Source: Deltaproteobacteria bacterium
Lineage (GTDB): Bacteria; Bdellovibrionota; JACOXK01
Length of the DNA stretch: 58,970 nucleotides
Assembly (NCBI GenBank): GCA_016186995.1
Contig: JACPKQ010000007.1
Coordinates: 116,226-175,195 of the forward strand
Direction: 5' to 3'
Both the position numbers and the translations under genes were made by a program. A model generated the notes under the pieces. The model made no database searches. It saw only the letters and a program-made list of their open reading frames with translations, and was not told the origin of the DNA. Below, piece after piece: positions 29,157 to 40,855 of this stretch. Positions within the stretch are counted from its first letter, which is position 1. Each line of letters opens with the position of its first letter.

Positions 29157-29240
29157 GTAAATTCTCTCATGGATACGTCAGATCCTCCCCTTCAAAACAT
29201 ACTAGGTAACTTTATGTGTCTCATAACGAAAATAGGTTAA

Positions 29241-29391
29241 AGAGATAGGGATAGTACTTACAGAGGGTCGTGTCGGAAGGTAATCTGGCTTGGTCCGCAT
29301 GAATATGCGGCAGATTACCTGAGACGCGAGGCGCACTTTTTCGCAGGAAAAAAGTGACGCCGTACCCGAGGAAAGTACTATCCCTATCTCT
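29241..29391 (+). repeat. TIR-flanked 151-bp structured element, copy 1
   Basis: A perfect 19-bp terminal inverted repeat: AGAGATAGGGATAGTACTT (29,241-29,259) and its complement (29,373-29,391). Inside are a hairpin AGGTAATCTG/CAGATTACCT (29,278-29,287 with 29,311-29,320) topped by CCGCAT/ATGCGG, and a second stem CACTTTTTTC/GAAAAAAGTG. No target-site duplication is obvious. It could be a MITE-like element or a structured RNA. A second, longer copy is at 40,561-40,784. Confidence 0.8.
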
Positions 29392-36254: not shown

Positions 36255-37021
36255 TGTTTTCTGGAATCATTACATCTTTAGCCGTGATTGATGAAGTCAT
36301 AAAACAATCTTCTTCTCTCACACTTCATTGTACATGGAAAAAACCACTTATAGGTGTAGAAGAAGGAGAAAGTTTAAGTCTGAACGGTATTTGTTTAACA
36401 GTCACAAAAGTCATGTCATTCCAGCCCGAAGCTCTTGGCATGACCCCTGTCATTCCCGCATCAGATGAAAGCACCAGCGGGAATCTAGATAGCGCAGCCA
36501 CTTTTTTTGAAGTCGATGTTTCAATAGAAACTTTAGAGAAGACAACAGCCAAGAATTGGAAGAATGGGGATCTCTTAAATGTTGAAAGAGCTCTTAAATA
36601 TTCTGATGTGGTTGGAGGACATCTTGTCAGTGGCCATATTGATGGAGTTGGAAAAGTTTCTGAAATTTCTGTCATCCCAGCGAACCCCTCTGTCATTCCA
36701 GCGCAGGCTGGAATCCAGTCCCAATTCACAAAAATGACTCTTTCTCTTCCAAAAGCCTTTATGAAGCATATTGTTTCGAAAGGCTCTCTTGCAGTGGATG
36801 GTGTGAGTCTCACTATCAATAAAGTTTTAGAAAAAGAAGTAGAACTTATGTTTGTTCCCTTTACGTTACAAAACACAAACTTGGGAACAAAACAAAAAGG
36901 CGATTTAGTAAACGTTGAGCTTGATATGATTGGAAAGTATGTTGCAAAACATCTGGAGGATATTGCTATAGTGCAGTCATTGCGAGGAGTCGAAGACGAC
37001 GCGGCAATCCCATCGCGGTAG
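36254..37021 (+). CDS. ribE: Riboflavin synthase with repeat-derived insertions
   Basis: A 255-residue riboflavin synthase alpha chain; related proteins have about 195-215 residues. The two lumazine-binding repeats are recognisable (MFSGIITSLAVIDEV and GICLTVTKV; VVGGHLVSGHIDGVG and VDGVSLTINKV). Residues 54-79, 140-157 and about 241-255 are coded by palindromic repeats: two family A sites and a family B copy that also provides the stop. Removing them gives a normal-size enzyme. The reaction is the dismutation of 6,7-dimethyl-8-ribityllumazine. The gene overlaps ribD by 1 nt. Confidence 0.9.
   Translation: MFSGIITSLAVIDEVIKQSSSLTLHCTWKKPLIGVEEGESLSLNGICLTVTKVMSFQPEALGMTPVIPASDESTSGNLDSAATFFEVDVSIETLEKTTAKNWKNGDLLNVERALKYSDVVGGHLVSGHIDGVGKVSEISVIPANPSVIPAQAGIQSQFTKMTLSLPKAFMKHIVSKGSLAVDGVSLTINKVLEKEVELMFVPFTLQNTNLGTKQKGDLVNVELDMIGKYVAKHLEDIAIVQSLRGVEDDAAIPSR
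36415..36444. repeat. Family A half-copy inside ribE (site 1a)
   Basis: GTCATTCCAGCCC to TGGCATGACC, immediately before a full family A copy. It codes residues 54-63 of RibE (MSFQPEALGM). Its end also reads as an inverted GTCATGCC, so it may be two half-elements. Confidence 0.55.
36449..36488. repeat. Family A repeat inside ribE (site 1b)
   Basis: GTCATTCCCGCATCAG to CAGCGGGAATCTAG: arms ATTCCCGC and GCGGGAAT pair perfectly. It codes residues 66-78 of RibE (VIPASDESTSGNL), inside a loop between the first lumazine-binding strands. Confidence 0.85.
36671..36718. repeat. Family A repeats inside ribE (site 2)
   Basis: A half-copy GTCATCCCAGCGAACCCC is followed by a full copy GTCATTCCAGCGCAGG to GGAATCCAG (36,692-36,718). 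It codes VIPANPSVIPAQAGIQS (residues 140-156). The VIPAQAGIQ peptide is a known signature of such repeats when translated. Confidence 0.88.
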
Positions 37022-37040
37022 CGATGAGATCACCACGGGT
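36976..37040. repeat. Family B repeat at the 3' end of ribE
   Basis: Starts GTCATTGCGAGG and contains the family B core GAGATCACCACGG; the right end is not clear. It codes the last 14 residues of RibE and supplies its TAG stop. Confidence 0.75.
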
Positions 37041-37051
37041 TTTCTGTTAGT

Positions 37052-37072
37052 CCCCTCCCTTGATGGGAGGGG
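37052..37072. repeat. Family C hairpin before ribBA
   Basis: CCCCTCCC and GGGAGGGG around TTGAT, 12 nt before the ribBA ATG. It is followed by ATAGGAATTAAA. Its purine-rich right arm and the AGGA after it may serve as ribosome-binding sequence. Confidence 0.75.
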
Positions 37073-37084
37073 ATAGGAATTAAA

Positions 37085-38302
37085 ATGTATACAAGCGTAG
37101 AAAAAGCAATAGAAGATATCAAAAACGGAAAGATGGTTCTTTTGGTTGATGATGAAGACCGAGAGAATGAAGCTGATCTTGTTTTTGCCGCTCAATTTGC
37201 AACGTCTCACTATATTAATTTTATGATTCGAGAAGGGCGTGGGCTTGTGTGTTTAGCGCTTGAAGAAAAATATGTTCAAAGATTAAACCTTCCTATGATG
37301 ACAGAAAAAAATAATGCGCGTTTAGCCACTGCTTTTACAGTTTCTATTGATGCTAAACAAGGTATTTCTACAGGTATTTCAGCAAAGGATAGATCTTTAA
37401 CCATACAAAAAGTGATGGATGAAAACTCCACTTCAGGAGATTTTGTTGTTCCTGGGCATATTTTTCCACTTCGCGCTCAAAAAGGTGGAGTTCTTGTTCG
37501 CTCAGGCCATACCGAAGGTTCTATTGATTTAACTCGTTTAGCGGGGCTTAAAGCAGGAGCCGTTATTTGTGAGGTCATCAATGATGATGGAGAAATGGCA
37601 AGGTGTAGTGATATTATAAAATTTTCTAAGAAACATAATATTCGTATTGTGACGATTGCTGATATTATTTCTTATCGTCTCCAACATGAAAGGTTTGTTC
37701 ATAGAGTAACCCAAGCCAAACTTCCTACACATTTAGATGAAAGTACAACGCAAGATTTCAAAATTTATTTGTTCCAAAATGAAATTGATCATTGTTCTCA
37801 TGTTGCTCTTGTAAAAGGACGTATTGAAAAAGAAAAGCCAACCCTTGTGCGTGTGCATTCTGAATGTTTAACAGGAGATGTTTTTGAATCTCAAAGATGC
37901 GATTGCGGTGAGCAATTGAGAGAAAGTATACGAATGATTTCAAAGGAAGGAAAAGGAGTTTTGCTTTATTTAAGACAGGAAGGAAGGGGTATTGGCATCA
38001 TCAATAAAATTAAGGCTTATCACCTTCAAGATGTAGAAAATGTTGATACAGTTCAAGCTAACGAAAAATTAGGGTTACCCGCTGATTTAAGACATTATGG
38101 CATTGGTGCTCAGATTCTAGCAAGTTTAGGGGTGGGTAAGATGAAGCTTCTTACCAATAACCCTAAAAAAATTATTGGCCTTGAGGCTTATGGTTTAGAG
38201 ATGGTTGAAAGAGTCGCCATTGAAATTCCTCCCCACAAAGAAAATCGTAAGTATTTAAAAACGAAAAAAGAAAAAATGGATCATTTATTAAAATTAGTAT
38301 GA
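37085..38302 (+). CDS. ribBA: Bifunctional DHBP synthase / GTP cyclohydrolase II
   Basis: A 405-residue fusion enzyme. Residues 1-200 are 3,4-dihydroxy-2-butanone 4-phosphate synthase ([27 protein letters not shown]). Residues 205-400 are GTP cyclohydrolase II ([21 protein letters not shown] with zinc cysteines, and LRQEGRGIG). It supplies both precursors of lumazine. Its second half can be catalytically weak in some relatives, but both motif sets look complete here. It lies between family C repeats on both sides and appears to have escaped insertions itself. Confidence 0.94.
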
Positions 38303-38314
38303 TCCGGGCGCCAT

Positions 38315-38351
38315 CCTCTCCCTTGATGGGAGAGGACAAAGGAGAGGGTGA
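38315..38351. repeat. Family C hairpin repeat before ribH
   Basis: CCTCTCCC/GGGAGAGG around TTGAT (38,315-38,335), then ACAAAGGAGAGGGTGA. The purine-rich tail contains GGAGAGGG and the GTG at 38,348, so the repeat provides the ribosome-binding region and one possible start codon of ribH. Confidence 0.85.
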
Positions 38352-38812
38352 GAAGAAAAGTGAAGTTTGCAATTATCGTTTCAAAATTTAATGAATCTCT
38401 TACACAAAAATTGTGTGATGGTGCCAAAGAAGTATTTTTAAAAAATAATGTTTCAGAAGATAATATTGATGTGTTTAGAGTGCCTGGTTCTTTCGAAATA
38501 CCTCTTATGGCTCAAAACTTAGCACGTACAAAGAAATACGTTGGGCTTGTTGCGATTGGAATTATTATTAAAGGTGAGACAGATCATTATCAACATGTGA
38601 CGGAAGGGGCAGTCTCAGGTATTTTAAAAGTTTCTTTAGAGAATAACATTCCGATTGGTAACTGTGTTCTTGCGTGCCACACATGGGCGCAAGCAGAAGC
38701 AAGATGCTCATTGTCATCTTCAGGCCCTGCCGGGGGATCCAGAATTAACCGAGGGTGTGAGGCTGCAGAAGCGGTTTTAGAAATGGTGGAACTGAATCCT
38801 CCTCTCCCTTGA
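38348..38812 (+). CDS. ribH: 6,7-dimethyl-8-ribityllumazine synthase
   Basis: A 154-residue lumazine synthase from GTG 38,348 (150 residues from GTG 38,360, MKFAIIVSKFN, which looks more like the family N-terminus). Motifs include FNESLTQKLCDGA, VPGSFEIPLMA and GIIIKGETDHYQHVTEGAVSGI, with the catalytic histidine. Residues about 122-132 (SLSSSGPAGGS) are coded by a family A repeat inserted before the last helix. The C-terminus (NPPLP) and the stop codon are provided by a family C repeat. It condenses the RibBA and RibD products. Confidence 0.9.
   Translation: MRRKVKFAIIVSKFNESLTQKLCDGAKEVFLKNNVSEDNIDVFRVPGSFEIPLMAQNLARTKKYVGLVAIGIIIKGETDHYQHVTEGAVSGILKVSLENNIPIGNCVLACHTWAQAEARCSLSSSGPAGGSRINRGCEAAEAVLEMVELNPPLP
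38713..38742. repeat. Family A repeat inside ribH
   Basis: GTCATCTTCAGG to CGGGGGATCCAG, 30 bp, in frame. It adds ten residues between the active-site region and the C-terminal helix of RibH, where the family has a short loop. Confidence 0.72.
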
Positions 38813-38837
38813 TGGGAGAGGACAAAGGAGAGGGTGA
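38801..38837. repeat. Family C hairpin repeat joining ribH and nusB
   Basis: CCTCTCCC/GGGAGAGG around TTGAT (38,801-38,821), then ACAAAGGAGAGGGTGA. The TGA in its loop is the ribH stop codon (38,810-38,812). Its tail gives GGAGAGGG and a GTG (38,834) in frame with nusB. Confidence 0.88.
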
Positions 38838-38854: not shown

Positions 38855-39289
38855 ATGGGATATAGAAGAAAGGCTCGTGAAATGGCACTTCAGATTCTTT
38901 TTCAAGGAGAGTATTTTCCTGAAGCAAATCTTAAAGAGAATGAAAAACATTTTCTTTTCTCTTTCCCTGTACAAAAGGAAATTGAACTTTTTGGTTCAAA
39001 GCTTTATGAAGGGGTTTGTGAACATTTAGAAGACATTGATCTTCTGCTCCAAAAGTATTCTGAACATTGGAAGCTTTATCGTATGTCCCCCATTGATAGG
39101 AATATTTTACGTATTGCTCTTTTTGAAATGGTTTATCTTAAGGATATTCCAGCCAGTGTTTCTATTGATGAGGCTATCGAAATTGCAAAACACTACGGCA
39201 CCGAAGACTCGGGAGCTTTTGTAAATGGTATTCTCGACAAAATCTTGAAAAAAGAAATTCAAAAAAATATAGTTTCTAAAACTGCTTAA
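38855..39289 (+). CDS. nusB: Transcription antitermination factor NusB
   Basis: A 144-residue NusB from ATG 38,855 (MGYRRKAREMALQILFQ, the typical family start). An extension to GTG 38,834 is coded by the family C repeat. The helical domain has the C-terminal INEAIEIAKHYG-like signature IDEAIEIAKHYGTEDSGAFVNGILD. NusB binds boxA RNA with S10 in rRNA antitermination. It follows ribH by 42 nt, the common ribH-nusB order. Confidence 0.93.
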   Translation: MGYRRKAREMALQILFQGEYFPEANLKENEKHFLFSFPVQKEIELFGSKLYEGVCEHLEDIDLLLQKYSEHWKLYRMSPIDRNILRIALFEMVYLKDIPASVSIDEAIEIAKHYGTEDSGAFVNGILDKILKKEIQKNIVSKTA

Positions 39290-40501: not shown

Positions 40502-40855
40502 AGCGCGCTTTTTATCACAGTTTTAAATTTGAATCAATTTCTAGAATGACACTTTATTTAAGAGATAGGGATAGTTCTTATCGAGGGTCGTGTCGGAAGG
40601 TAATCTGGCTTGGTCTGCATAGTATATGCAGCAGATTACCTGTAGAGGCGAGGTCCAGGCTTTTATGAATCATTTTTTAGTTTCACAAAAATGATTCATA
40701 AAAAAGATAATTCCCGGAGTTAAGCTGTTCTTTTCTAATAAAAAAAGTGATGCCGTGCCCGAGGGAAGTACTATTCCTATCTCTGTAATGAAGAACCAAG
40801 GTTGTCATTCAATGAGGGATTGCTTTCTTTTCGCGTGATTGTTACATGTGAAAGA
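40502..40855. other. Gap upstream of the ffh operon
   Basis: About 354 bp holding the second copy of the TIR-flanked element (40,561-40,784). The remaining bases show no gene. A promoter for the ffh operon should lie here, but no strong -35/-10 pair was picked out by eye. Confidence 0.5.
40561..40784 (+). repeat. TIR-flanked structured element, copy 2 (224 bp)
   Basis: Ends AGAGATAGGGATAGTTCTT and AAGTACTATTCCTATCTCT (2 mismatches to a perfect 19-bp inverted repeat). The first 60 nt match copy 1 at about 56 positions. The central hairpin region has about 70 extra bases containing its own palindrome TGAATCATTTTT/AAAAATGATTCA. Same orientation relative to downstream genes as copy 1. Confidence 0.8.

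Follow-up and report, generated by a model that had tools for sequence, protein, structure and literature searches.

The window, by which we mean the whole stretch of 58,970 nucleotides from a Deltaproteobacteria bacterium that was analysed, contains a rib operon in which three successive junctions each hold one copy of the same short repeat, the copy before ribBA being decayed. The vitamin B2 gene ribH has a product identified as lumazine synthase by its matches to PF00885 and TIGR00114. The features of the locus are:

37051–37073, + strand: third, diverged copy of the repeat, TCCCCTCCC-TTGAT-GGGAGGGGA with a decayed tail, just 5' of the ribBA ATG at 37085
37085–38302, + strand: ribBA, stop TGA 38300–38302 within ATGA 38299–38302
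38314–38351, + strand: BoxC/PIT copy 1, between ribBA and ribH; Y arm 38314–38322, loop TTGAT 38323–38327, R arm 38328–38336, linker CAA 38337–38339, third-strand arm AGGAGAGGG 38340–38348, TGA 38349–38351
38339–38344, + strand: AAGGAG, Shine-Dalgarno-like core in the copy 1 tail; its duplex with CACCUCCUU has an energy of about -8 kcal/mol
38348–38350, + strand: GTG within copy 1, possible RibH start, 3 nt past AAGGAG
38360–38812, + strand: ribH from its preferred GTG start (VKFAIIVSKFN), supported by PF00885 (2.7e-43), TIGR00114 and homologue N-termini; stop TGA 38810–38812 in the loop of copy 2
38800–38837, + strand: BoxC/PIT copy 2, identical to copy 1, covering the ribH end and the ribH-nusB gap
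38834–38836, + strand: GTG in copy 2, in the nusB frame, probably unused
38855–39289, + strand: nusB from its homologous ATG start, supported by TIGR01951 (9.1e-40) and by alignment with NusB of the relative G002

The two copies flanking ribH are the same 38-mer, TCCTCTCCCTTGATGGGAGAGGACAAAGGAGAGGGTGA, with 100% identity, so that the preliminary description, which reported nearly identical elements around ribH, was right about their presence and too cautious in its wording. It had also placed the reading frames correctly, with the ribH TGA inside the hairpin loop, GTG 38348 in frame with ribH and GTG 38834 in frame with nusB. A search for the repeat core returned 7 rows in the window and 0 in dinucleotide shuffles of it. 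The window contains no Rfam match and no tRNA.

By its sequence, the repeat that the preliminary description called family C is the known BoxC/PIT/TM motif, a class II intrastrand-triplex repeat (PMC4666352). Class II motifs consist of a pyrimidine arm, a purine arm and a mirror purine third strand, with stems of 6–15 nt and loops of 1–6 nt (PMC4666352). An alignment of all genome copies displays a stem-loop followed by a purine tail, and this tail mirrors the purine arm GGGAGAGGA exactly. Both window copies have the format 9/5/9/3/9 (arms of 9, loops of 5 and 3) and all nine triads are C.G.G or T.A.A, which is the class II intrastrand-triplex architecture. Neither copy matches the strict TM_ECO consensus CCCTCNCCC N3-6 GGGNGAGGG N3 GGGNGAGGG: one triad differs, a T.A.A end triad standing in place of C.G.G and being altered in all three arms. 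Because of this mismatch we assign the window copies to the broader class II motif. Another copy in the same genome (locus L001, CCCTCTCCC-TTGAT-GGGAGAGGG-TTA-GGGTGAGGG) satisfies the E. coli consensus and differs from the published E. coli copy 2 solely by one extra base in its first loop.

Variation among copies is informative about the tail. In a set of 301 sites, collected with a finder that does not require mirror symmetry, the third strand co-varies in mirror order: all 17 copies with C/T-asymmetric arms (CCCCTCCC) have G/A tails, and 0 of 17 fit Watson-Crick order, which rules out the tail as a Watson-Crick partner of the left arm for these copies. Copies of the opposite asymmetry (T/C) have tails of mixed order. 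Since the copies share ancestry and do not represent independent events, and since the T/C set is mixed, the covariation is support for a triplex and not proof of it. Mirror symmetry is mostly kept in variant copies, and thus the tail need not have originated as a ribosome site. Judged from the sequence, the elements can fold as a DNA intrastrand triplex, a folding that CD and NMR demonstrated in vitro with E. coli oligonucleotides (PMC4666352).

The likeness to BoxC/PIT/TM_ECO (PMC4666352) extends to arm order, arm length of 9, loops of 5 and 3, near-identical sequence and many dispersed, mostly intergenic copies. The differences are the T.A.A end triad of the window copies and the positions occupied: E. 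coli copies were reported to be always intergenic (PMC4666352), whereas in this genome 5 of 24 copies lie in genes and the repeat also overlaps the starts and ends of genes. ERIC-type stem-loop families resemble the window copies in being reported across borders of coding and non-coding sequence, but they have another sequence, and the survey describing them lists BoxC without a border-spanning label (PMC2267715). Although BoxC/PIT repeats were recognised decades ago, no function has gained acceptance for them. Rickettsia palindromic elements are small palindromes inserted in frame in genes. They too differ in sequence from the window family, which is mainly intergenic. The Cod-2 repeats of the same survey were compared by its authors to elements in R. 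conorii genes (PMC2267715). What we describe is a repeat of an already known kind in an unusual place.

About 28 relatives of the 38-mer are scattered over the genome (1.68 Mb in 30 contigs). Allowing up to 3 mismatches, the core occurs at 26 loci genome-wide, against 0 for a reversed-pattern control, and BLAST of the whole element against its own genome returned 29 sites. According to approximate gene calls from a home-made hexamer caller, 19 of 24 copies are intergenic in a genome whose window part is ~92% coding. Exact versions of the motif, among the matches listed, come from records labelled Proteobacteria, Chloroflexi, Nitrospirae, Planctomycetota and others, many of which are metagenome bins with possible misbinning. 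The two copies around ribH are each other's closest relatives, at 100% as against 95% for the next best copy, which suggests that this pair arose by local copying. In locus L011, around position 1500, a BoxC copy lies in frame within a MurE-like gene (LSLDGRGQGEGE; gene name assigned by eye).

Small hairpin repeats in many copies recall REP elements moved by a RAYT (Y1) transposase, and of 16 motif-bearing genomes searched, 15 have some Y1 gene. A RAYT-driven REP element is nevertheless highly improbable here, and we reject it: the genome itself has no Y1 domain (PF01797), and the loci of roughly 3 kb around 20 fetched Y1 genes contain no copy of the motif. Y1 matches fall at identical coordinates in locus L099, labelled Deltaproteobacteria bacterium, and in G018, a repeat-rich relative of the same phylum, and the two are apparently one genome.

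The start of ribH is narrowly confined. Read upstream in its frame, ribH runs into a TGA at 38324, within the copy 1 loop, and this leaves only two possible starts before the RibH domain: GTG 38348, which is part of the repeat, and GTG 38360, which lies 9 nt past it. Purines of the repeat occupy the 20 nt upstream of either GTG, and in anti-Shine-Dalgarno score both surpass about four fifths of the tested window genes; the region before ribBA, where the third copy lies, is among the strongest. As a search of the assembly yielded no 16S gene, the anti-Shine-Dalgarno sequence is an assumed one, and of the window genes that start with ATG only about a third have a Shine-Dalgarno core. Neither candidate has ideal spacing: AAGGAG precedes GTG 38348 by 3 nt, closer than the usual rules allow, and for GTG 38360 the distance is 15 nt, which is long, with GAGGGTGA lying nearer to the latter. 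Four RibH homologues start with M-K/R two residues before the conserved strand, as does the reading from GTG 38360, and the homologue in G002 starts seven residues before it. A start at GTG 38360 rather than at GTG 38348 therefore fits better with spacing and homologue N-termini. Hence the upstream copy does appear to form the purine-rich ribosome-binding region of ribH, as had been proposed; the GTG inside that copy, named as a possible start, is in frame and available but less likely than was implied. RNA folding predicts a hairpin of 9 pairs, with AAGGAG next to it and largely unpaired.

At the other end of the gene, RibH of G002 terminates in ALDMLRI, and the window sequence reads VLEMVELNPPLP and then stops in the loop of copy 2, which also encodes the last residues PLP. 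The proposal that the downstream copy supplies the TGA of ribH is borne out, and the donation of both a ribosome region and a stop to RibH by the repeat is well supported at the sequence level. The corresponding proposal for nusB, a start at the GTG of copy 2, was not sustained. NusB of G002, a class-level relative, begins MGERRKSREMLLQLLFQ and aligns without offset to MGYRRKAREMALQILFQ of the window from ATG 38855 (MGERRKSRE versus MGYRRKARE), and this homology rules out GTG 38834, which would add MIEWCLF with no counterpart in G002. The Shine-Dalgarno-like core of the repeat is more than 20 nt away from ATG 38855.

In G002, ribBA and ribH overlap by 4 nt (ATGA) and the gap between ribH and nusB is 6 nt. 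The ATGA at the ribBA stop of the window may be a remnant of this overlap or could be a coincidence; its ATG is out of frame with ribH, as would be expected if an insertion had shifted the frame. The genome collection holds no close relative with an empty site, and the sole genome of the same family, G001, has no RibH match, so that we infer the insertion and the former start from a RibH of 47% identity. We propose, with a probability of about 70%, that BoxC/PIT copies were passively inserted into tight rib junctions and donated signals incidentally. The repeats would have come to occupy two tight junctions of the operon and displaced the earlier start of ribH. Translation of RibH would now begin at GTG 38360 (or GTG 38348), using the AAGGAG or GAGGGTGA of the tail left single-stranded beside the RNA hairpin. 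The gene now ends within the loop of the second copy, and NusB retains its own ATG. The donation of signals would be a by-product of composition, as the ends of the element that face outward are both GGAGAGGG-like and stops close two of its three forward frames. If the insertions were only passive, the locus is a tidy example of a compact operon tolerating repeats.

The preliminary description went further and suggested that the repeats are mobile elements recruited as expression signals. In such a recruitment the repeat would be kept as a portable translation module for its ribosome-binding, start and stop signals. Among 209 pooled intergenic copies from fetched loci, gene starts are commoner on the tail side than on the other side: the counts are 13 and 5 up to 15 nt away (p 0.10), 16 and 9 up to 25 nt (p 0.23), and 48 and 24 up to 100 nt (p 0.006). 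Several start calls lie within the element and may be artefacts of the caller. Stops of upstream genes just before the left arm exceed stops facing the tail by 28 to 5 within 25 nt (p 7e-5). The copies thus show some orientation with transcription, and the excess at the range of a ribosome site is weak. The tail lies closely 5' of the starts of ribH and of a gene in L023, and by eye also in L015 and L022, and the copy in L018 terminates a gene (named by eye). Copies favour gaps, and starts within 100 nt favour the tail side, but copies also lie within genes and the bias at 15 nt is weak. We consider recruitment rather unlikely: nusB makes no use of the repeat, a fifth of the genome's own copies (5/24) are inside genes, no Y1/RAYT transposase was found in the genome, and the E. 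coli study saw neither a preferred distance nor a regulatory trend (PMC4666352).

A related and bolder view is that BoxC/PIT elements act generally as portable ribosome-binding sites, a copy in a tight junction replacing a lost Shine-Dalgarno sequence and copies at gene starts being retained by selection across phyla. It is conceivable because both outward ends are GGAGAGGG-like and because RNA reportedly does not form triplexes of the purine motif, and we hold it to be unlikely; a literature search for repeats donating ribosome sites found nothing on point. Copies lying across the translation signals of a gene in an operon offer a concrete test of whether BoxC/PIT repeats ever affect expression. 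They also call for caution in annotation where starts or stops fall within such repeats.

The stable 9-bp stem in both gaps could instead act in the RNA, as an intergenic element of the operon that attenuates transcription, stabilises the mRNA or marks a processing site. This is improbable, for the stem is followed by CAAAGGAGAGGG and not by a U tract, unlike an intrinsic terminator with its G+C-rich stem and subsequent T run, and E. coli copies had no promoter or terminator activity in published tests (PMC4666352). Moreover, the upstream copy reaches a fold z-score of only -0.96, and an RNA hairpin leaves the covariation of the tail unexplained.

At 38711–38743 the active-site loop RAGGKxGNKG of RibH reads R-CSLSSSGPAGGSRI-NRG, being interrupted by CSLSSSGP with loss of the conserved Lys. 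The DNA of this stretch has an 88% match elsewhere in the genome (L259), which suggests that a different small repeat was inserted in frame. As this repeat-like insert breaks the RAGGK loop, the function of RibH is uncertain. If ribH were decaying, weak constraint would let repeats accumulate in and around it and its start and stop would be accidents in a failing gene; that no RibH match was found in the family-level relative G001 is in line with this. We nonetheless think a decaying gene doubtful, since the frame has stayed open through three repeat-related insertions, the Pfam and NCBIfam scores are strong, this is the sole RibH found in the genome and the remaining rib genes are intact.

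The window has further repeats. A second palindromic repeat at 36999–37038 (ATCGCGGTAGCGAT...GATCACCACGG, 16 genome places) has the ribE stop TAG 37019–37021 in its hairpin loop, and a third (GTCATTCCAGCGCAGGCTGGAATCCAG, translated VIPAQAGIQ) lies in frame within ribE at 36671–36730. A direct repeat of 64 nt, 92% identical between its copies, is found at 29237–29300 and 40557–40620.
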